DNA from: an uncultured Eubacteriales bacterium | GTDB taxonomy: Bacteria > Bacillota > Clostridia > Christensenellales > Aristaeellaceae | Direction: 5' to 3' | DNA length: 64,000 nt | NCBI GenBank assembly: GCA_900540045.1 | Contig: UQEF01000002.1 | Location: 1-64,000 of the forward strand | Shown here: piece by piece, positions 10,450 to 63,331 of the stretch | Position numbering within the stretch: the stretch's first letter is position 1 | Layout: every line of letters starts with the position of its first letter | Position numbers and translations under genes: made by a program | Notes under the pieces: model-generated | Seen by the model: only the letters and a program-made list of their open reading frames with translations | Database searches by the model: none | What the model was told of the DNA's origin: nothing

Positions 10450-12333
10450 TTATTCCTGCGGCCGGGAGGAGGGTTTGCCGCGCTGCGCCGCATAGTCGTA
10501 AATACGCTGCGCCAGTCCGGTACTGATGCCCTCCACCTGGCACAGTTCCTCCTGCGTGGCCTCAAAGATGGCCTTTACGCTCCGGAAGTGCCGTATCAGC
10601 GCCGCCTGCTTCTTGGGGCCTACACCGGGTATGGCGGAAAGCTCGCTCCTGAGGCCCTCCTTGCCGCGCAGCGCGCGGTGATGCGTAATGCCAAAGCGGT
10701 GCGCTTCATCGCGCACATACTGCACCAGGTGAAGCGCGTTGGAACGCCGGTCCAGCACGATAGGGTCCTCCCGTCCCGGCAGATAGATCTCCTCAAACCG
10801 CTTTGCCAGGCCGAACATGGGCACGCTCGCTCCCGCCTCCTGCATGGCGCGGTGCGCAAAGAGCAATTGTTCCGGGCCGCCGTCGATCAGAATCACGTCC
10901 GGCAGCTTGGAAAAGCTGCCCGCATCTGGGTCCAGGCCCGCCTGCTCGCGCTCGTGGCGCTCCTTCAGCCCATGGGTGAAGCGGCGGGTGATCACCTCGG
11001 CCATGGAGGCGAAGTCGTTGGCGCCTTCGACGGTTTTGATTCGGTAGATGCGGTATGCCTTTTTATCAGGCAGTCCGTCCTGAAAGACCACCATGCTGGC
11101 CACGCTCAAAATACCCTGCGTGTTGGAGATATCGTACCCCTCAATGCGCCGGGGCAGTACGGGCAGATGCAGCGCCTCCTTGAGCTCCAGCATGGCCTGC
11201 CGGGTGCGCATGTCCTTGACCTCCGCGCTCTGCCGGTGCTTGGAAAGCGCGTCCTCGGCGTTTTTCAGGGCCAGGCGCACCAGATCCGCCTTGTCGCCCC
11301 GCTGGGGCACAGCCAGCGTCACCGCCCCGCCCCGCCGCTCCCGCAGCCAGCGCTCCAATTCGTCCAGCGGTTCAGGCAGCGCCTGCGCCAGCACGTTGCG
11401 CGGGATCAGATGTCCGTCGTCATAATACTGGGTCAGGAAGCCGGCAAGCACCTCCTCCGGCGCTTCCGCGCCACAGTGCTCCATCAGGAAGGCCCGTCCG
11501 CCCTCAATGCGCCCCGCACGGATATGCGTCAGCTGCACCATGGCGTCCTGGTCATCCTGAGCCACGGCCAGCACATCCTGCTCCACATCGCGCGTCTGAA
11601 TGGCGTGCTGTTCCTCCATCAGCTGGCGGATATCCGCGATCTTGTCCCGCAGCACCGCCGCCTGCTCGTACTCCATGCGGGCGCTGGCGACGTTCATCTC
11701 ACGGGTGAGCTCGGCGAGCAGTTCCCGGCTGTCGCCGTTCAAAAAGTCGATGACGCGCGCCAGGATGGCGCGGTACGCCTCCTCGCTCACCCCGCCCGCG
11801 CAGGGCGCCAGGCATTGCCCAATCTGATGGTGCACGCAGGGACGCCGGGGCGATTTGACGGGAAAGCGGAGATTGCAGGTGCGCAGCGGGAAAAACCGCC
11901 GCACTTCATCCATCACCTGCCGGACCGCGGTGGCTCCGATGTAGGGGCCGAAGTACTTCACGCCCGCCCGCTGGTCATCCATGTTGCGGGCCAGGGTCAG
12001 GCGGGGGAAGGGCTCGCTGAGGTCGATGCGCAGATAGGGGTAGTGCTTGTCATCCTTGAGAAGGATGTTATAGAAGGGGCGATGCTTCTTGATGAGGTTG
12101 CATTCCAGCGTGAGCGCCTCAAAATTGGTCTGGCAGAGCATGAGGTCAAAATCATCCACGCGGCTGACCATGGCGGCCACCTTCGGCGTATGCGAGCCGT
12201 GGAAATACTGCCGCACCCGGTTTTTCAGATTGACCGCCTTGCCGACGTAAATGATCTCGCCCCGGCTTTTCATGATATAGCAGCCGGGGCTTTCGGGAAG
12301 CATTTTGATTTTATAGGCCAATGTGGGATTCAT
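10450..12333 (-). CDS. uvrC: Excinuclease ABC subunit C
   Basis: A 627-residue UvrC. The N-terminal GIY-YIG nuclease domain (SPGCYIMKSRGEIIYVGKA, residues about 12-32) makes the 3' incision. The UVR motif that contacts UvrB lies near 195-235 (AVLRDKIADIRQLMEEQ). The RNase H-like 5' nuclease domain (EGYDISNTQG, DVILIDGGPEQL) follows, and the C-terminal helix-hairpin-helix pair (LSAIPGVGPKKQAALI) ends the protein. The ATG at 12333 has AGGAAG 7 nt upstream. It starts 14 nt after the preceding membrane-protein gene and may share its transcript. Confidence 0.97.
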   Translation of the reverse strand: MNPTLAYKIKMLPESPGCYIMKSRGEIIYVGKAVNLKNRVRQYFHGSHTPKVAAMVSRVDDFDLMLCQTNFEALTLECNLIKKHRPFYNILLKDDKHYPYLRIDLSEPFPRLTLARNMDDQRAGVKYFGPYIGATAVRQVMDEVRRFFPLRTCNLRFPVKSPRRPCVHHQIGQCLAPCAGGVSEEAYRAILARVIDFLNGDSRELLAELTREMNVASARMEYEQAAVLRDKIADIRQLMEEQHAIQTRDVEQDVLAVAQDDQDAMVQLTHIRAGRIEGGRAFLMEHCGAEAPEEVLAGFLTQYYDDGHLIPRNVLAQALPEPLDELERWLRERRGGAVTLAVPQRGDKADLVRLALKNAEDALSKHRQSAEVKDMRTRQAMLELKEALHLPVLPRRIEGYDISNTQGILSVASMVVFQDGLPDKKAYRIYRIKTVEGANDFASMAEVITRRFTHGLKERHEREQAGLDPDAGSFSKLPDVILIDGGPEQLLFAHRAMQEAGASVPMFGLAKRFEEIYLPGREDPIVLDRRSNALHLVQYVRDEAHRFGITHHRALRGKEGLRSELSAIPGVGPKKQAALIRHFRSVKAIFEATQEELCQVEGISTGLAQRIYDYAAQRGKPSSRPQE

Positions 12334-27866: not shown

Positions 27867-28664
27867 TTATGCCTGCGGCACCTCGGTCATGCGTTCGCCC
27901 ACAGTGGGGGGCGCTTCTTCGGTCAGCGGCTTGCGCGCCGCCAGAAACCAGCGCACGGCGTGAGGTTCCGGCGGAGAGAGCTTTTTATCGCCATAGAGCC
28001 GAATATCGGTAAAGCCCACGGCCTCCATCAGCTCGGTCAGCAGCTGTGCGCTGTGCGCATATTGCCGCTGCTGCTCGCCGATGCGCAGGTAGGTTTCGTC
28101 CTTCTGCCTCACGAAGATGGCTAGGTTCAAATCCACATATCCCTGTGCACGGTTGTACCGGTTCTGCCACAGGTAGGCGATCTCCGGAGTTTCATCTCCG
28201 ATGAAGTGATTGCCCAGCACATGCTCCAGCTTATAGGGCGTGCTCAGGTCCACAAACAGCGCACCGCCCTCGCGCACGCTCAGAAACGCCGCACGGAAGA
28301 AATCCGTCAGCTCGCTGGCGTCCTTGAGGTAGTTCAGGCCGTCATTGGTGCATAGTACGGCGTCCATGCACCGGTGCAGATGCAGCCGGCGCATGTCCTG
28401 CCTGACGAAAGGAATCATCGCGCCGGTGCGGCGCGCCTTCTGTGATGCCTCGAACAGCATGTCGGGCGAGAGATCCACACCGGTCATCTGATAGCCCATC
28501 TTGCTCAGCGCAATGGTGATGCTGCCCGTACCGCACGCGCATTCGCATACCTTTCCGCGGGGAACGCCATAGCGCTCCATCAGCTCGTGATAGAACCGCG
28601 CCCAGGCCAGGTAATCCACGTCGGCCATGAGCCTGTCATATACGGATGCAAATGCGGTGTACAT
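27867..28664 (-). CDS. Class I SAM-dependent methyltransferase
   Basis: A 265-residue cytoplasmic enzyme. The AdoMet site is visible as VCECACGTGSITIALSKMGYQMTG (motif I), GVDLSPDM (motif II) and DAVLCTNDGLNYL (post-II). It starts MYTAFASVYDRLMADVDY, typical of the YqeM/UbiE-like small-molecule methyltransferases. AAGGAG lies 12 nt upstream of the ATG. The substrate is unknown. Confidence 0.9.
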   Translation of the reverse strand: MYTAFASVYDRLMADVDYLAWARFYHELMERYGVPRGKVCECACGTGSITIALSKMGYQMTGVDLSPDMLFEASQKARRTGAMIPFVRQDMRRLHLHRCMDAVLCTNDGLNYLKDASELTDFFRAAFLSVREGGALFVDLSTPYKLEHVLGNHFIGDETPEIAYLWQNRYNRAQGYVDLNLAIFVRQKDETYLRIGEQQRQYAHSAQLLTELMEAVGFTDIRLYGDKKLSPPEPHAVRWFLAARKPLTEEAPPTVGERMTEVPQA

Positions 28665-31989: not shown

Positions 31990-34900
31990 TCATGCCTTTC
32001 GTTCCCTCGAATTTGAAATAATTTTGTCATATTTCAGCGGCCCTTCGTCATATTTGACGAACGCTTCTCCCAGCCGCAGGGAATAAAGCGCCCATTCTTT
32101 CACCGGCCAGGGGGTCCCTGCCAGCAGCGCCTGCCGGTAGTAGGAAATCTGCCTGCCATAGCGCTGCCACAGCTCGTCCGCAGCGGCCACGCGGTCCGTT
32201 TTGAAATCCACCAGCACCCATGCGCCATCTTCCAGAAAACACAGGTCGATCACTCCCTGAAGCAGCGTGGGAAACGGCTCCTCCACATGCAGGTTGAAGC
32301 TCCACTCCCGGCGCACCATGGAAGCCGCGAGCATCCGCTGACCCAGGGGACCGGTCAGAAAGCGCGCAGCCATCCGCACATCCGCCAGTTCGGCCTCCGC
32401 GGGGGTCATCACACGTTTTTCCACCAGCCGGGCCAATTCGCTTTTAATATGGAAGAAAATCGTTTTTTCGTTCCCCTTCGCCGCCCGCGCGCCCTCCAAA
32501 TCCATCAGTCCCAGCAGCCGGTGCGTCTGTACGCCCCGCAGCAGTCCTTCTTCCTCGCGGGGAGGCTCCAGAAAGGCCGGCATGGCCGGCAGCGAAGCCA
32601 GCAGCCGGGGACGCGGCCCCTCGTAGGGAAGGCGCTTGAGCTGTTCCTCCTCCTCTTCGGCGGCTTCGGGCAAGGTCTGCGCACCGTCCAGCGCGCGGCA
32701 CAACGCGGTAACGCCCAGCTTGAGGGGACGGGGTGCCGTCCGCTTCTCATCCTCCGCCCTGGCGGCCACGGGCCAGTCCATCCCGGAGATCTGCGGAGCG
32801 GGGAGGTTTTCGCCGCCACTCTGCCCCTGTACCTCCGGTAGCGGAAAGGGCAGTGGGGCGCTCTGGCGGGCCAAATGTCTTGTGATGACTGGCTCCATGT
32901 GGAAAACGATGCGCCAGGGGGCACTTTTCTGTGGAAAACTTGTGGATATTGTGGGGAACTCCGGATTGATCCCTGTTTCCCTCATATCGAATGTGGAAAG
33001 CTGTCCTTCCCGTTCCACGGTCACACTGTCGCAGGGCTGCGCCGATTGCAGCAGCCAGTCCAGCATGCTGTGCGCCTCCCGGACGCCATAGACCCCTCCG
33101 GATCGTCCCGTCCGGGCAGCATCCGGGTTCTTCATGCTGCCCACCAGCACCAGGCGCACCTTGGGCCGTGTCATGGCCACATAGAGCACACGAGCCCGCT
33201 CGGCCCGCTCGGCGCTACGCTCCTTCAGCGCAATCGCGCCCTGCAGGAGCGTCGTGCGGCGGGTGCGCGCCCGCTCATTGACATACCCCAGGCCGAAGCC
33301 AATTTCGCCATGCAGGCTAAGGGTGCGCGTCTGTGTGCGCCGCAGCAGAGGACCTCCCAGCCCCATTACATACACCGTGGGAAATTCCAGTCCCTTGGAT
33401 TTGTGGATGGTCATCACACGCACCACATCCTCCCAGGGATTCATCACGGCGGGGCTCTGTTCCCCCCCGCCGCCGCCATCTGCCCGCACGGCTTCCACAA
33501 ATCCATGCAGGCCGTCCGTGTGGCTCTGCTCATAAGCGTCGGCCCGGTGACAGAGCATGCGCAGATTTGCCTGCCGCAACTTTCCGCCAGGCTGTGCGCC
33601 GTAATGTGCATAAAGTCCGCTGCGCTTGAGAAAACTCCACAGGTATTCGGCCAGCGACATGCTGCGCGCATAAAACCGCTCGGCCTCCAGCGCGTCCAGC
33701 ACGGCGCGGCAACGCCCGTCAAGGGGCGCGCCGGCCTCGTGAGCCGCCGCCTGCAGCGCGCTGAGGAAGCTGGCCTCCCGCTGGGGACGCAGCAGCCGGA
33801 TGGCTGCCAGCTCTCGCTCCGAAAGCTCAAAGAGCGGGCTGCGCAGCTCGCTGAGCAGCGCCACATCATTAGCCAGGTTATCCAGCAGTGTCAGGTGCTG
33901 AAGCACCTGATCCACCTCGTCGGACGTCATGGGGTCGCCGCCGCCTTCGCAGTACACGGGAATGCCCATACGGCCGAGCACCAGCTCCACCTTGTCGGCT
34001 ACGTTCTTGCCCACGGGCAGGAGAATGGCGATGTCACGATAGTGGAGAGGCGCGCCGGGGCGTCCCTGAGCGTCGGGGACCGGCTCGCCCACCGTTGCGA
34101 GGATGTCGCGCGCGATGAGTTCCGCCTCGGCCAGGACCATATCCTGCGGCCTCCGCCCCTGGGCGTTGAGCACGTGCAGTTCGGTTGCCGGGTCTCCCTC
34201 GGAGGGTACGCCGGGATACAGCCTTGCGTCGGCATCATAGTCAATTTCCGTGACACGGCGGTCCATCACGTGCGAGAACACGCGGTTCACCGCATCCAGC
34301 ACCCCGGTCCGGCTGCGGAAATTCAGGTTCAGCACCACCCGGCGGCATGGCGCGTCCTCCCGGGGAGAAAAGCGTTGCAGTTTACCCAGGAACAGGCCCG
34401 GCTCTGCCAGGCGGAACCGGTAAATGCTCTGCTTTACATCGCCCACATAAAAATAGGTCTGGCCCTCGCCGCGCTTGAGGGCGTTGAGGATGGCCTCCTG
34501 CAGAGCGCTCACATCCTGATATTCGTCCACGAACACCGCATCGAACCGCCGCGCCTGCTGGCCGCGCAGGTCCGGATCGCGCAGCACGGCCAACGTCATA
34601 TGTTCAAGATCGCCGAAATCGATGCATGCCTCGCTGAGCTTTCGCGCCTGAAAGCGGTTGTGAAAGCGGCGCACCGCTTTGGCCAGCCCACGCGTGGCCG
34701 GCCTCATGGCCTGCATATCCGCCACGCCCTGTTCAAAATCCGCGGGCAACAGCTTTTTGAGGTCATCCGCCAGATCCTTGATCCGGTTGCGCAGGTCCTT
34801 AAAGTCTCCCGCCAGGCGTTCCTCGTCTCCGGTCGCGGGCTTGATGCGCCCCAGGGTGGCAAACTTCAGGGTTCCCAGCGCCCCGCACAGGGCACTCATC

Positions 34901-56998: not shown

Positions 56999-57964
56999 AT
57001 GTCGTTTTCGTCCGACGTAAAAAAGGAGCTTTCAAACGTAAAGCCCGAAAAAAGCTGCTGCGCCCGAAGCGAGCTGGGCGGCCTGTACGCATCCATGGCC
57101 AGCCTGAATCTGCTGGGACGCGGACAGGTAAACGTGCAGTTTTCCTCCGAAAGCCTGACGGTATGCCGCAGAGCTTACACGCTGCTTTCGCAGGCTCTAC
57201 ACATCGCCGCGCAGATTCATTATGTTTCCAGCGCGCGCTTCGGCGGCAAGCGCAAATGCGTGCTCACGCTGGGCCCCATTCAATCCCCCGTGCTGCTGTG
57301 TGCCCTGGGCATGATGGAAAAAAACGAAGACGGCACCTATTCTCTCAAAGCAACCACGCCCAGGTTGCCTCTCACCCGCGGCTGTTGCATGCGCGCGTTT
57401 TTGCGCGGCATGCTTCTGGGCGGAGGCACCATGACCAATCCGGAACAGGGCTATCATCTGGAAATTGCCTTCCGGGATGAAGAATCGCGCGTGATGCTGG
57501 CCAAATGCATGCAGCGTCTGGGTCTGCCCATTCGCATCAGCGCGCGCCGTGAGCATTCTTATCTGTATCTGAAGCAGTCCGACCAGATCGTTACCCTGCT
57601 CACAGCCCTGGGCGCGCATACCAGCGTAATGCATATCGAGGACCTGCGCATACGGCGGCAGGTGCTGGAAACGGTTAATCGCGCAATGAATTGTGACAGC
57701 GCGAATCTTCAAAAGCAGATGGACGCTAGCCGCCAGCAGCTTGAAGTCATTCGGCAGCTGATCCAAGAGGACCGGCTTTCCGCCCTTCCGCCCTCTCTGC
57801 AACAGATCGCTCTGGCGCGGCTCAACGCGCCGGATGCCACGCTGGAACAGCTGGGTCAATCGCTGGACCCGCCCCTTGGAAAAAGCGGCGTTAACCATCG
57901 GATCAGGCGGCTGATGTCTTACTTTGACGATACTCATCTTTCAGGAGGGATCCCCCATGATTAA
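56999..57964 (+). CDS. whiA: DNA-binding protein WhiA
   Basis: A 321-residue WhiA. The N-terminal half is the LAGLIDADG-type fold (FSSDVKKELSNVKPEKSCC, RAFLRGMLLGGGTMTNPEQ, YHLEIAF), and the C-terminal helix-turn-helix reads LNAPDATLEQLGQSLDPPLG with KSGVNHRIRRL. WhiA influences cell division and chromosome segregation in Bacillus and sporulation in Streptomyces. AAGGAGG precedes the ATG. It overlaps the Crh-like gene by 8 nt. Confidence 0.96.
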   Translation: MSFSSDVKKELSNVKPEKSCCARSELGGLYASMASLNLLGRGQVNVQFSSESLTVCRRAYTLLSQALHIAAQIHYVSSARFGGKRKCVLTLGPIQSPVLLCALGMMEKNEDGTYSLKATTPRLPLTRGCCMRAFLRGMLLGGGTMTNPEQGYHLEIAFRDEESRVMLAKCMQRLGLPIRISARREHSYLYLKQSDQIVTLLTALGAHTSVMHIEDLRIRRQVLETVNRAMNCDSANLQKQMDASRQQLEVIRQLIQEDRLSALPPSLQQIALARLNAPDATLEQLGQSLDPPLGKSGVNHRIRRLMSYFDDTHLSGGIPHD

Positions 57965-58208
57965 AACCCAGGTCGATCTGCGCAATCATAATATTATCGG
58001 CCGAGAACGCGCAGCGCTGATTGCCAGTACTTCTTCTCGTTTTCAGTCCACCCTTACCCTGGAGCGCGACGGCATCGTGCTCAACCTCAAAAGCATGATC
58101 GGACTTTTATCCCAGACCATTCCCAAGGACGGGCAGATTTGGGTCGTGGCGGACGGTGTGGATGAAAAGGACGCTACCGAAGCCGTAATGAAGGTTCTGC
58201 AGCTCTGA
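57957..58208 (+). CDS. crh: Crh-like HPr-family protein lacking the active-site histidine
   Basis: An 83-residue HPr-fold protein. Where HPr has GLHARP around His15, this has IIGRER, with Gly at position 15, so PTS phosphotransfer is not possible. Ser46, the HPrK target, is kept in LNLKSMIG. That combination, and the position after whiA, matches Bacillus Crh, a partner of CcpA in catabolite control. GGAGGG lies upstream of the ATG at 57957, which overlaps whiA. No hprK is in the window. Confidence 0.85.
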   Translation: MIKTQVDLRNHNIIGRERAALIASTSSRFQSTLTLERDGIVLNLKSMIGLLSQTIPKDGQIWVVADGVDEKDATEAVMKVLQL

Positions 58209-58601
58209 CAGGTTGAAAACCCATGGGAAGGCTGTGGAAGATTCTCTTTTTTTCTTGCACAATCTCAATTTGCTTTTCCTTACCGGGTTTTCCACACCCT
58301 GTGGAAAGCATGGAAAAACGCGTTTTGAAACGCCTTTTGTCGAAAGGTTTTGCCCCTTGTGGGCAGGAAACACGGCTTTCAAGAGCGAAATGGTATCTTC
58401 ATCCTCTGTCCATTTTGGACAAGGGCAAAAAAACAGTGGAAAGTTTCCGGAAAAGCAGTCTCTTTTCCATGGGTTTTCCAAAGGTTTTTTTGGTATGCTG
58501 CAAGCATGTAAAACCTTTTTCCACGGTTTCCACATCCCCTACTACTACTACTGAAATAAATATGCAACTACAACAACAATGGTTGTCGGAGGTCTCCAAA
58601 A
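58209..58601 (+). other. oriC: Chromosomal replication origin (oriC) with DnaA-box-like motifs and DnaA-trios
   Basis: No gene lies in these 393 nt before dnaN. DnaA-box-like 9-mers: TGTGGAAGA (58233-58241), TTTTCCACA (58288-58296), TGTGGAAAG (58300-58308, facing the previous one), TTTTCCACG (58517-58525) and GTTTCCACA (58526-58534). The last is followed by a GC-rich TCCCC spacer and four TAC triplets (58540-58551), then AT-rich DNA. This box-spacer-trio-AT order is that of the Bacillus subtilis unwinding element. None is the exact TTATCCACA. dnaA is not in or beside this gap. Confidence 0.85.
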
Positions 58602-59717
58602 ATGAAGTTTGAATGTTCCGCACAAGAACTGCTCGCCGGCCTGATCAATGCCACGCGCGCGCTGAGCCCGCGTCCCGCCATGCAAATTCTTGAGGGCGTT
58701 TTGCTCAGCGCCCAGGAGGATGAAGTGGAGTTGATGTGTTCAGACGGGTCTCTGAGCATCAAAAGCCGGGTGAAAGCCAGCGTATCTGATCCCGGACAAG
58801 TGGTATTGCCCGGCCGTCTGCTCACCGAAATCGTGCGCAAGCTGCCGGAAGGAACGGTTCATTTTTCCATGAATGACCGGATGGTGGTTACCATCCGCTG
58901 CTGTCAGAGCCGCTCTACCATCACGGGAATGTCGCCTGCGGATTTTCCGCAGATGAAAGACCTGACCAATACGCACGCGCTGCATTTTCCCCAGAAGCGC
59001 CTTCGCGATATGATTTCGAAGGTTACGTTTGCCATTGCCCTTCAGGAAAGCCGCCAGGCGCTCACCGGCTGTCTGATGGAGGTGACAAGCGACGAGCTGC
59101 GCCTGGTGGGTCTGGACGGGTTCAGGCTTGCGCTTCAGCGCATGCACGATCAATTTGTTCTTCCCGACGGGGTGGACAAAGTGACGGCGATCATTCCCGG
59201 CCGTGTCATGAATGAAATTGCCCATATCATGGAAGACGACGACGGCATGGCCACCTTCCATCTGGACAGCACCCATCTGATGGCCGTGATGGGCGATACC
59301 ACGCTGGTCACCAGTCTGCTGGCCGGGGAATACATCAACTACCGTCAGATTTTGCCCACGTCCTGGCTTACGCGCGTGACCGTGAAACGGCGCGAGCTGC
59401 AGGACGCCATTGAACGTGCCAGCCTGATGGCCAAGGAAGGAAAAAACAATCTCATTCGCATGAAGGCGACGCAGGATAATCTGAAAATCACCTCCATGAG
59501 CGAGCTGGGTGACGTGCTGGAGGATCTGGATGCTCATTTGGAGGGAGAGGACATCGAAATTGCCTTCAACGCCCGCTACATCAGCGACGTGATCAAAAAT
59601 GTGGATGAGGAATGCTGTACCCTGTGCATGAATACCAATGTCAGCCCCTGCGTGATTTCTCCTCTGGAGGGAGACAGCTATCTTTATCTGGTGCTGCCGG
59701 TTCGTGTGTACAATTGA
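58602..59717 (+). CDS. dnaN: DNA polymerase III beta sliding clamp
   Basis: A 371-residue sliding clamp with three repeated domains, beginning MKFECSAQELLAGLINATRA. It contains GFRLALQRM in the middle domain and ends SPLEGDSYLYLVLPVRVYN. It tethers DNA polymerase III to DNA. GGAGG lies 9 nt before the ATG. It directly follows the oriC-like region, the usual place for dnaN, although dnaA is not next to it. Confidence 0.97.
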   Translation: MKFECSAQELLAGLINATRALSPRPAMQILEGVLLSAQEDEVELMCSDGSLSIKSRVKASVSDPGQVVLPGRLLTEIVRKLPEGTVHFSMNDRMVVTIRCCQSRSTITGMSPADFPQMKDLTNTHALHFPQKRLRDMISKVTFAIALQESRQALTGCLMEVTSDELRLVGLDGFRLALQRMHDQFVLPDGVDKVTAIIPGRVMNEIAHIMEDDDGMATFHLDSTHLMAVMGDTTLVTSLLAGEYINYRQILPTSWLTRVTVKRRELQDAIERASLMAKEGKNNLIRMKATQDNLKITSMSELGDVLEDLDAHLEGEDIEIAFNARYISDVIKNVDEECCTLCMNTNVSPCVISPLEGDSYLYLVLPVRVYN

Positions 59718-59754
59718 CAGGGTCCATCAAATATATACATCATATGGTATTTGT

Positions 59755-59786
59755 CCCCGGAGGCCATGCGGCCTCCGGGGATTTTT
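59755..59786 (+). terminator. Rho-independent terminator of dnaN
   Basis: CCCCGGAGGCC and GGCCTCCGGGG form an 11-bp stem with an ATGC loop, followed by ATTTTT. Confidence 0.9.
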
Positions 59787-59858
59787 GCTTTATCCGGCGA
59801 TGAAGCGATCCTCCGCATAGCCACAGGACATGACGCATACAATAATCCGCGAAACCCT

Positions 59859-59887
59859 TTGACATCGCCAGGGAAGTGCGATACAAT
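59859..59887 (+). promoter_or_regulatory. Sigma-A type promoter for murB-rapZ
   Basis: TTGACA (59859-59864), 17 nt, TACAAT (59882-59887). Confidence 0.75.
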
Positions 59888-59920: not shown

Positions 59921-60886
59921 ATGGACGCGTCCTCGCGCGAAAAGCTATTGGAAGCACTGAAGCATTCGATACCCAAAAAGCAGATTTTTGAAAACGCGCC
60001 CATGAGCCGCTATACCACCCTTAGACTGGGAGGACCTGCGGATGTACTGGTGCAGATTGCTTCCGTTGAGCAGCTTTCCTCTGCATATGCAGCCGCCAGA
60101 GATGCCGGTACGGAGGTACGCGTCCTTGGGAATGGCAGCAATCTGCTCATAAGGGATGGCGGTGTAAGGGGTTTGGTTCTCCAGCTGGGAGAGCTCTTTA
60201 GCGAGGTTTCCGACCCCGTTCCCCTGCCCGACGGGCGCGTGGCACTTACGGCACAGGGAGGCGCCACGCTGCAAAAGCTATGCAATGCAGCAGCGGACTA
60301 TGCTCTCAGCGGTTTGGAATTTGCCAGCGGCATTCCCGGCACGGTGGGCGGCGCAGCCTATATGAACGCCGGCGCCTATGGCGGCGAGATGAAGGACGTT
60401 ATCACCCATGTGACCGCTTGCCTTCCGGATGGACGCACCGTCGCCTATTCCAACGAGGAGATGGATTTCGGCTACCGCAAAAGCAAAATCAATCAGCAGC
60501 CTGAGCCCATTGCCATCACATCCGTCACCGTCGCGCTGACGCCCGCGGATGAGGAAACCGTGCGCGCCACGATGCGGGAATTTTCCGCCAGAAGGCGTGA
60601 AAAACAGCCTTTGACGCTGCCCAGCTGCGGCAGCACCTTCAAACGGCCCGAGGGACGGTTTGCCGGAACACTGATTGAGGAATGCGGCCTGAAGGGTTGT
60701 CGCGTGGGCGGGTGCAGCGTATCGACCCTGCATGCGGGATTCTTGGTTAATGATCAGCAGGGAAGCGCCTGCGACTATCTTTCTCTGATCGCCCAGGTGC
60801 AAAAGACCGTGTATGAAAAAACCGGCGTCCGTCTGGAGCCGGAGGTACGCATCTGGGGCGAGGACGTCTGCGCGAAAGAAATATAG
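59921..60886 (+). CDS. murB: UDP-N-acetylenolpyruvoylglucosamine reductase
   Basis: A 321-residue flavoenzyme that reduces UDP-GlcNAc-enolpyruvate to UDP-MurNAc. The FAD-binding domain has GGPADVLVQIAS, LGNGSNLLIRDGGVRG and GIPGTVGGAAYMNAGAYG; the substrate domain has SCGSTFKRPEG and the C-terminal LEPEVRIWGED with the catalytic Glu. The layout fits type II MurB. GGGGAGG precedes the ATG. rapZ starts 22 nt after its stop, so they are cotranscribed. Confidence 0.97.
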   Translation: MDASSREKLLEALKHSIPKKQIFENAPMSRYTTLRLGGPADVLVQIASVEQLSSAYAAARDAGTEVRVLGNGSNLLIRDGGVRGLVLQLGELFSEVSDPVPLPDGRVALTAQGGATLQKLCNAAADYALSGLEFASGIPGTVGGAAYMNAGAYGGEMKDVITHVTACLPDGRTVAYSNEEMDFGYRKSKINQQPEPIAITSVTVALTPADEETVRATMREFSARRREKQPLTLPSCGSTFKRPEGRFAGTLIEECGLKGCRVGGCSVSTLHAGFLVNDQQGSACDYLSLIAQVQKTVYEKTGVRLEPEVRIWGEDVCAKEI

Positions 60887-60908
60887 ATACGAAAGTGAGG
60901 AATCGGGT

Positions 60909-61820
60909 GTGCATTTTCTGATTCTGACAGGAATGAGCGGCGCGGGCAAAACCGTGGCGATTCGCTATCTGGAGGACCTTGGGGCCCTGTGCGTGGACAA
61001 TCTGCCTCCCATGATGCTGGTGCCTTTTATGGAGGCATGCCAAAACGCCCGGCTTCATAACCCCATGATTGCCATAGCCGCAGATGTGCGCAGCGGCGAG
61101 TTTTTCGACGCCAAGGCGGTTACCAAGATGATCGATGAAGCCCGGCTGGTGGGCTTTCACATCGATACGCTGTTTATCGAAGCCAGCGATGAGGTGCTGG
61201 TCAACCGCTACAAGGAAACGCGCCGGGATCACCCCCTCAGCGGCGAAGGGCTGACGTTGCACGAAGCCATCCGTGAGGAGCGCAACCGCCTCATGCCCCT
61301 GCGTGAGACGGCCAATCACCTGATCGATACCTCCAACCTGCGTCCGCGCGCGCTGCAAAAAATGCTCAAGGAGATCGTCCTCAACGCCGGGTCCGAGCCT
61401 CCGCTGCGCGTGGAGGTGCTTAGCTTTGGCTTCAAGCGCGGCATTCCGCGCGAGGGCGATCTGGTCTTTGACGTGCGCTTTTTGCCCAACCCGTTCTATA
61501 TTCCGGAGCTGGGGTCCCATACGGGGCTGGATCAGGATGTGAAGGATTTTGTGCTGGAACATCCCGTCACCAAGGAGTTTCTGGTCAAATGCATGGACAT
61601 GCTCCAGTTTTTGCTGCCCCATTACATCACGGAGGGCAAGCACCGGCTGGTGATCGCCATCGGATGCACAGGAGGGGCACACCGCAGTGTGGCTATTGCG
61701 GAGTACATCAGTGCCAGGCTGGAGGAACTGGGGTATCATACCACGGTCAACCATCGCGATATCGCACTGGAACAGGCGCACTGGGAAACCAAAAGTGAAT
61801 ATCAAAAAGGAGAGCCATGA
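60909..61820 (+). CDS. rapZ: RapZ/YvcJ nucleotide-binding protein
   Basis: A 303-residue P-loop protein. Walker A GMSGAGKT is at residues 8-15, VDNLPPMML and LFIEASDEVLV follow, and the C-terminal domain has DVRFLPNPFYIPELGSHTGLD and IGCTGGAHRSVAIAEYI. RapZ binds UDP-GlcNAc/GlcN6P and regulates amino-sugar supply in E. coli; YvcJ has GTPase activity in Bacillus. The GTG at 60909 has GAGGA 7 nt upstream. Its last codons lie in the terminator stem-loop. Confidence 0.95.
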   Translation: MHFLILTGMSGAGKTVAIRYLEDLGALCVDNLPPMMLVPFMEACQNARLHNPMIAIAADVRSGEFFDAKAVTKMIDEARLVGFHIDTLFIEASDEVLVNRYKETRRDHPLSGEGLTLHEAIREERNRLMPLRETANHLIDTSNLRPRALQKMLKEIVLNAGSEPPLRVEVLSFGFKRGIPREGDLVFDVRFLPNPFYIPELGSHTGLDQDVKDFVLEHPVTKEFLVKCMDMLQFLLPHYITEGKHRLVIAIGCTGGAHRSVAIAEYISARLEELGYHTTVNHRDIALEQAHWETKSEYQKGEP

Positions 61821-63255: not shown

Positions 63256-63331
63256 GTCGGCGTCGCGCCGATGAAAAGCCCTGGCCGTACCAAGCCCTCC
63301 CTTGTTCAATTCTTGTAATTCGACGCTTTTT

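Follow-up and report, generated by a model that had tools for sequence, protein, structure and literature searches.

A predicted replication origin beside dnaN and away from dnaA in a clade of uncultured Clostridia

In published work, dnaA-oriC-dnaN is the arrangement described for Bacillus subtilis and for the clostridia compared in PMC7561715. The B. subtilis incC/BUS region consists of tandem DnaA boxes, a short C-rich spacer, 3'-GAT-5' DnaA-trios and AT-rich DNA, placed before dnaN (PMC6669920, PMC8287927), and 3'-GAT-5' is the commonest trio published (PMC8287927). This region lies between dnaA and dnaN, with a second essential half of the origin boxes before dnaA. The two genes form one operon autoregulated by DnaA; adding some 9 kb between the origin halves is reported to have had no significant consequence, and the distance that is permitted was called an open question (PMC4207641). 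In Clostridioides difficile, oriC2 carries the trio string CACCTACTACTATTACTACTATGA upstream of dnaN (PMC7561715). In cyanobacteria, dnaA and dnaN are encoded separately and oriC adjoins dnaN (PMC4674748, PMC7198777), with dnaN found on one side of oriC in 55 of 68 species (PMC4674748).

Here, we describe a predicted origin in a window of 64,000 nucleotides (the whole stretch of DNA analysed) from an uncultured member of the Clostridia. The gap ahead of its dnaN has the elements of B. subtilis incC in the same order, and its trio string, CACATCCCCTACTACTACTACTGA, is close to that of C. difficile. Unlike B. subtilis, the relatives of this organism carry dnaA, together with its boxes, far from the gap. 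With cyanobacteria the locus shares an oriC that adjoins dnaN, the separate encoding of dnaA and dnaN, and the box TTTTCCACA (PMC4674748, PMC7198777). The likeness is one of arrangement, however, as cyanobacteria belong to another phylum, and here sister species keep dnaA-gap-dnaN while a box cluster stays at dnaA and the trios at dnaN. A dnaN-side origin is known from cyanobacteria; what looks new is the lasting separation, throughout a clostridial clade, of the two parts of a Bacillus-type origin. Among the titles and abstract openings listed in searches of the open-access literature, we found no report of a separation of dnaA from the dnaN-side origin in Clostridia.

The gap ahead of dnaN

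The genes around the gap all lie on the + strand, in the order metallophosphoesterase, whiA, hpr, gap, dnaN, murB and rapZ (Table 1). The gap measures 393 bp and is bounded on the left by a gene that the initial annotation had called Crh-like; its match to PF00381 agrees with this, and by eye the lack of the usual HPr histidine motif fits Crh. The DnaA-box-like motifs that had been claimed for the gap stand out clearly against the rest of the window: 6 of the window's 55 boxes with at most one mismatch to TTWTCCACA fall within these 393 bp, compared to 0.34 expected, and the eight densest 393-bp intervals, counted in 50-bp steps with boxes of up to two mismatches, all overlap the gap. Scans of the gap for promoters and terminators gave nothing decisive.

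Away from the predicted origin, the window holds a second, smaller group of DnaA-box-like motifs, four in 500 bp at about 32898-33400, which is possibly a titration site or a product of chance. On the other side of dnaN, a strong terminator-like hairpin is followed by a promoter-like site ahead of murB (59753-59887). The presence of murB-rapZ 3' of dnaN (59921-61820) was seen in only L001 and L002 among the 80 related loci, several of which end soon after dnaN. In three loci, L118, L119 and L120, murB-rapZ and dnaA are divergently oriented.

Table 1. Features at and around the predicted origin (positions within the 64-kb window)
Feature	Position	Strand	Remarks
Predicted oriC (dnaN-side origin half)	58209..58601	.	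box density, sole BUS of the window, skew minimum at 58124, conservation
whiA	56999..57964	+	PF02650, PF14527, PF10298
Crh/HPr-like gene, adjoining the predicted origin on the left	57957..58208	+	PF00381
dnaN	58602..59717	+	PF00712, PF02767, PF02768
murB, directly 3' of dnaN	59921..60886	+	
rapZ	60909..61820	+	PF22740, PF03668
DnaA box TCTTCCACA	58233..58241	-	1 mismatch
DnaA box TTTTCCACA	58288..58296	+	perfect match to TTWTCCACA
DnaA box CTTTCCACA	58300..58308	-	1 mismatch
DnaA-box-like motif TTTTCCAAA	58474..58482	+	1 mismatch
Tandem pair, first box TTTTCCACG	58517..58525	+	similar in relatives
Tandem pair, second box GTTTCCACA	58526..58534	+	similar in relatives
C-rich spacer TCCC	58535..58538	.	
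DnaA-trios	58539..58553	-	top strand CTA x4 + CTG, giving 3'-GAT-5' x4 + GAC below
AT-rich unwinding DNA	58554..58569	.	81% AT
Second triplet array, degenerate, CAACTACAACAACAA	58565..58579	+	CTA array in some relatives

The right-hand part of the gap contains a complete unwinding module, in which TTTTCCACG (58517) and GTTTCCACA (58526) are followed by TCCC, the triplet string CTACTACTACTACTG (58539-58553) and AT-rich DNA. We searched for such modules with the published rule of PMC8287927, narrowed here to CTA trios, which asks for a box with at most 2 mismatches to TTATCCACA, a spacer of 0-16 bp and at least three CTA (the strict rule). Each of the tandem boxes has 2 mismatches to TTATCCACA, the second lies 4 bp and the first 13 bp from the trios, and the trios are supplied by CTA x4 + CTG. 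The module at 58517-58553 is the only place in the 64-kb window that satisfies the rule, and no match arose in 2000 Markov-1 resamples of the gap or in 10 resamples of the window. The proposal that the gap follows the order of the B. subtilis unwinding element is thereby borne out, as is the GC-rich spacer, found as the C-rich TCCC. The triplet array of the initial annotation is present as well, but its reading as four TAC triplets gives way to CTA x4 + CTG. Of the 50-mers in the window, 99.8% are more stable than that at 58540-58589, but the least stable one between 56 and 61 kb, by a slight margin, starts elsewhere, at 59705, and runs over the end of dnaN.

Conservation of the module and GC skew

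For comparison, 80 of 147 dnaN loci were kept, with dnaN 44-98% identical, and the 110 bp before dnaN were compared in all of them. By the strict rule, the module is present in 36 of the 80 loci. When the trios were extended to at least four of CTA, CTG, CGA or TTA (the extended rule), it was found upstream of dnaN in 51 of 80 loci, compared to 1 of 4066 control pieces. A looser rule, with three in a row of CTA, CTG, TTA, CTC or CTT, matched 50 of 80 dnaN loci and also 20 of 4066 control pieces, and we therefore quote the four-trio rule. Many of the 29 loci missed by the extended rule show box pairs and CTACGAC-type arrays by eye.

DnaA boxes are similarly widespread, with a mean of 5.5 in the 400 bp before dnaN (80 loci, one with none) compared to 0.39 in 2987 control pieces. 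A further group of boxes lies 171-400 bp upstream of dnaN (mean 2.69 over the 80 loci), and the 13 loci of the whiA-hpr type have gaps of 383-1585 bp with 6-9 boxes each. The idea that boxes were gained beside the trios after the genes had separated found no support, as the 170 bp before dnaN hold 2.66 boxes in the 80 split loci and 2.11 in 9 sister loci in which dnaA and dnaN are adjacent (p=0.14). Over 400 bp the figures are 5.5 and 2.4 (p=2.5e-5, with kinship ignored), a difference that comes from the 171-400 bp part, which in most sisters is partly dnaA coding sequence.

Starting near the left edge, the cumulative GC skew of the window declines until 58124, where it has its minimum, and the last 6 kb bring a slight rise; on this side the window extends no more than 5.4 kb past the dnaN start. 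A minimum near 58.5 kb had been named at the outset as support for an origin here, and the relatives largely agree: among nine dnaN-bearing sequences picked for long flanks (the window and relatives), the minimum lies at most 3 kb from dnaN in seven. In G012 it falls at 79852 (dnaN to 79832), in G016 at 94506 (dnaN 93803-94909), in G022 at 100878 (dnaN 99594-100697), in G031 at 11244 (dnaN from 14187) and in G005 at 28493 (dnaN to 28475; 60 of 86.6 kb examined). The two sequences that do not fit are G018, with a broad low and a minimum about 19 kb from dnaN, and G009, in which the global minimum at 154 kb is about 124 kb from dnaN (30 kb), where there is a local low only.

The 3.97-Mb contig of G055, a near-complete chromosome, was sampled as its first 200 kb and twenty 20-kb pieces, 19 of them at 200-kb steps from 300 kb and one from the last 20 kb. 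Samples between 60 kb and 2.1 Mb have positive skew, whereas those from 2.3 Mb up to the contig end, like the first 60 kb, have negative skew; within the first 200 kb the minimum is at 63307. The switch thus coincides with dnaN (63594-64688) and is about 46 kb from dnaA, which is located at 16.0 kb.

The place and history of dnaA

In tblastn searches, no dnaA was found in the 64-kb window with the DnaA of a relative as the query, or in any of the 80 dnaN loci with G001 DnaA; 72 of these loci include at least 2.5 kb upstream of dnaN. The DnaA profile TIGR00362, run on the genomes of 34 relatives drawn from those behind the 80 loci, detected a full DnaA above cut-off in all 34, and in each case dnaA and dnaN are apart. 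In 32 genomes the genes are on different contigs, which alone is no proof of separation, and in two they share a contig at distances of about 101 kb (G009) and 37 kb (G031). The 548-kb contig of G026 that carries dnaA lacks dnaN, and even its nearer end is 150 kb from dnaA. The genome search that the initial annotation had called for places dnaA away from dnaN in all the relatives searched, and together with the skew this supports its claim that the origin has kept dnaN and been separated from dnaA; the window's own dnaA presumably lies elsewhere too. Neither in the window nor in the 80 dnaN loci does dnaA stand between two box regions as in the two-part B. subtilis origin. What we found is the layout of cyanobacterial type, with oriC beside dnaN and dnaA elsewhere, in a locus that resembles the cyanobacterial one without being its relative.

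We give almost no credence to the explanation that the separation is an artefact of metagenome assembly or binning. Most relatives are fragmented metagenome-assembled genomes and 32 of the 34 comparisons run across contigs, as such an artefact would have it, but all 34 genomes agree, the 72 dnaN loci with long upstream flanks lack dnaA, and the split sequences form one supported clade (see below). Moreover, G009, G031 and G055 carry both genes on one contig and yet apart, which already contradicts this explanation.

DnaA boxes are also found upstream of dnaA. At least three lie within 600 bp in 27 of the 34 relatives, at least one in 31, and none in three. Many are perfect, and in the closest split relatives they are placed near -114, -99 and -64. 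The mean per 300 bp upstream of dnaA is 3.4 in 41 split sequences and 4.5 in 17 of the adjacent type, compared to 0.23 in 1694 background pieces. In G073 (G073:C188:10960-11466), dnaA is immediately preceded by two consecutive partial matches, both to the first part of DnaA (model positions 1-74), which are perhaps small DnaA-domain-I proteins.

These boxes raise the question of whether the gap is merely a DnaA-regulated dnaN promoter, with the true origin elsewhere, for example at the cluster before dnaA. The dnaA-side boxes, often perfect where the pair that abuts the trios on the dnaN side has mismatches, would suit this view, as would the global skew minimum of G009, which at about 22 kb from dnaA is nearer to it than to dnaN. 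However, the extended rule found no module within 2 kb of dnaA in any of the 34 dnaA loci, as far as the contigs reach, although a rule that catches just 51 of 80 dnaN loci makes this silence no proof of absence. The skew likewise does not turn at dnaA: in 200-kb stretches of G013 and G026 that carry dnaA only, the minima are 99 and 89 kb away from it, and in G055 and G031 dnaA is 46 and 41 kb off the minimum. We rejected an origin at dnaA on the skew and the missing module, with G009 as the exception, and regard the promoter explanation as very improbable. A better box cluster beside dnaA, which had been named as a finding that would speak against the dnaN-side origin, exists as far as boxes go, but it comes with neither a detected module nor, in the two long stretches, a turn of the skew.

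To follow the history of the separation, we built a DnaA tree of 76 rows, comprising 30 plus 26 from genome searches and 20 picked by hand, of which ten were adjacent and ten were apart on one contig, the latter saying nothing on frequency. With the root at the midpoint, 41 split rows and 6 undecidable rows of the family form one clade (support 99/96), which stands next to 9 adjacent-type rows (99/96) from species with an ordinary dnaA-gap-dnaN arrangement. Given this neighbourhood, one old separation in the clade would be the simplest account and fits the sequences. The other hand-picked non-adjacent rows are found elsewhere in the tree: 9 belong to a deeper group, with L309 placed outside it. 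The window was placed by dnaN alone, which is 98% identical to that of G001.

In the 60 genomes of the family of G001, sorted by hand, dnaA and dnaN are adjacent in 19, apart on one contig in one and on different contigs in 30, and 10 have one or both genes missing above the cut-off. In 81 genomes of the order, again sorted by hand, the genes are adjacent in 42, one of which has a DnaA fragment; they share a contig but are apart or rearranged in 11 and are on different contigs in 25 (two with a broken dnaN), and 3 genomes are without one of the genes. Here too, a place on different contigs is in itself no proof of separation. The 9 sisters show boxes, dnaA, a gap of 173-481 bp and dnaN in that order. 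Three or more boxes precede dnaA in seven of them, with none in L188 and none in the 101 bp available of L191, and trio-like strings were seen by eye in eight of the nine gaps, the exception being L186 (130 bp looked at). In L303-L308, which belong to a different group of the order, no more than a few kb separate dnaA from dnaN, but the genes are inverted, reordered or interrupted, an origin-region rearrangement distinct from the one described here. In the adjacent-type L290 and L291, only about 53 bp without boxes separate dnaA and dnaN, and the unwinding site is therefore probably elsewhere.

Predicted working of the separated origin

The module, its conservation, the switch of the skew at dnaN, the distance between dnaA and dnaN in the relatives and the grouping into a single clade are all read directly from sequence. 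On these grounds we are confident that the gap is a chromosomal origin run by DnaA from a distant gene, following one old separation of dnaA and dnaN. The ancestor would have had the usual two-part origin, with boxes before dnaA, then dnaA, then the gap and dnaN, and a single old rearrangement would have parted dnaA and its upstream boxes from the gap and dnaN; either side could have moved. In the present-day locus, DnaA from the distant gene would bind both the cluster of boxes and the tandem pair at 58517-58534, load along the 3'-GAT-5' triplets of the lower strand and open the AT-rich DNA as in B. subtilis incC, after which a DnaD/DnaB-domain protein and a loader of the DnaC/DnaI type would place the helicases. 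DnaA binding, melting and helicase loading are inferred from the DNA, as is autoregulation of dnaA, which the dnaA-side cluster probably now serves.

How far the two halves have become independent is a further matter. We consider it unlikely that they still cooperate over tens to hundreds of kb, with the dnaA-side cluster a part of initiation and not just of promoter control. The spacing of the dnaA-side boxes is kept in the closest split relatives and both B. subtilis origin halves are essential in vivo (PMC6669920), which favours such cooperation, but autoregulation alone could explain the conserved cluster, and the box group 171-400 bp upstream of dnaN may give self-sufficiency. It is possible, if somewhat short of probable, that throughout the clade the two parts of a Bacillus-type origin have come to lie about 37 kb to 150 kb or more from each other, the dnaN half being a self-sufficient one-part origin with these extra boxes and the dnaA half a remote DnaA control site. 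If so, the functions of origin and remote control site would have been separated naturally. The clade represents a natural, long-term version of the experiment that parted the B. subtilis origin halves. The clade also parts dnaA from dnaN, genes of a single operon in B. subtilis (PMC4207641). For uncultured Clostridia, it warns that predicting oriC from the position of dnaA is unsafe.

Candidate components for the later steps are encoded in the relatives. DnaD/DnaB-domain proteins (PF07261) were detected in 16 of 16 genomes tested, and in G001 one of them adjoins a weak match to a DnaA-like ATPase, as would suit a helicase loader. For DnaD, binding to TnnT motifs on the opposite strand is described (PMC10201434), and such motifs are supplied here by CTACTACTA. 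Finally, in some relatives (L009, L013 and L077) a second CTA array lies 3' of the AT-rich stretch, at the place where the window has the degenerate array of Table 1. As a general feature this array was rejected, since the strict rule finds it in 12 of 80 loci; where present, it may be another single-strand site for DnaD or DnaA.
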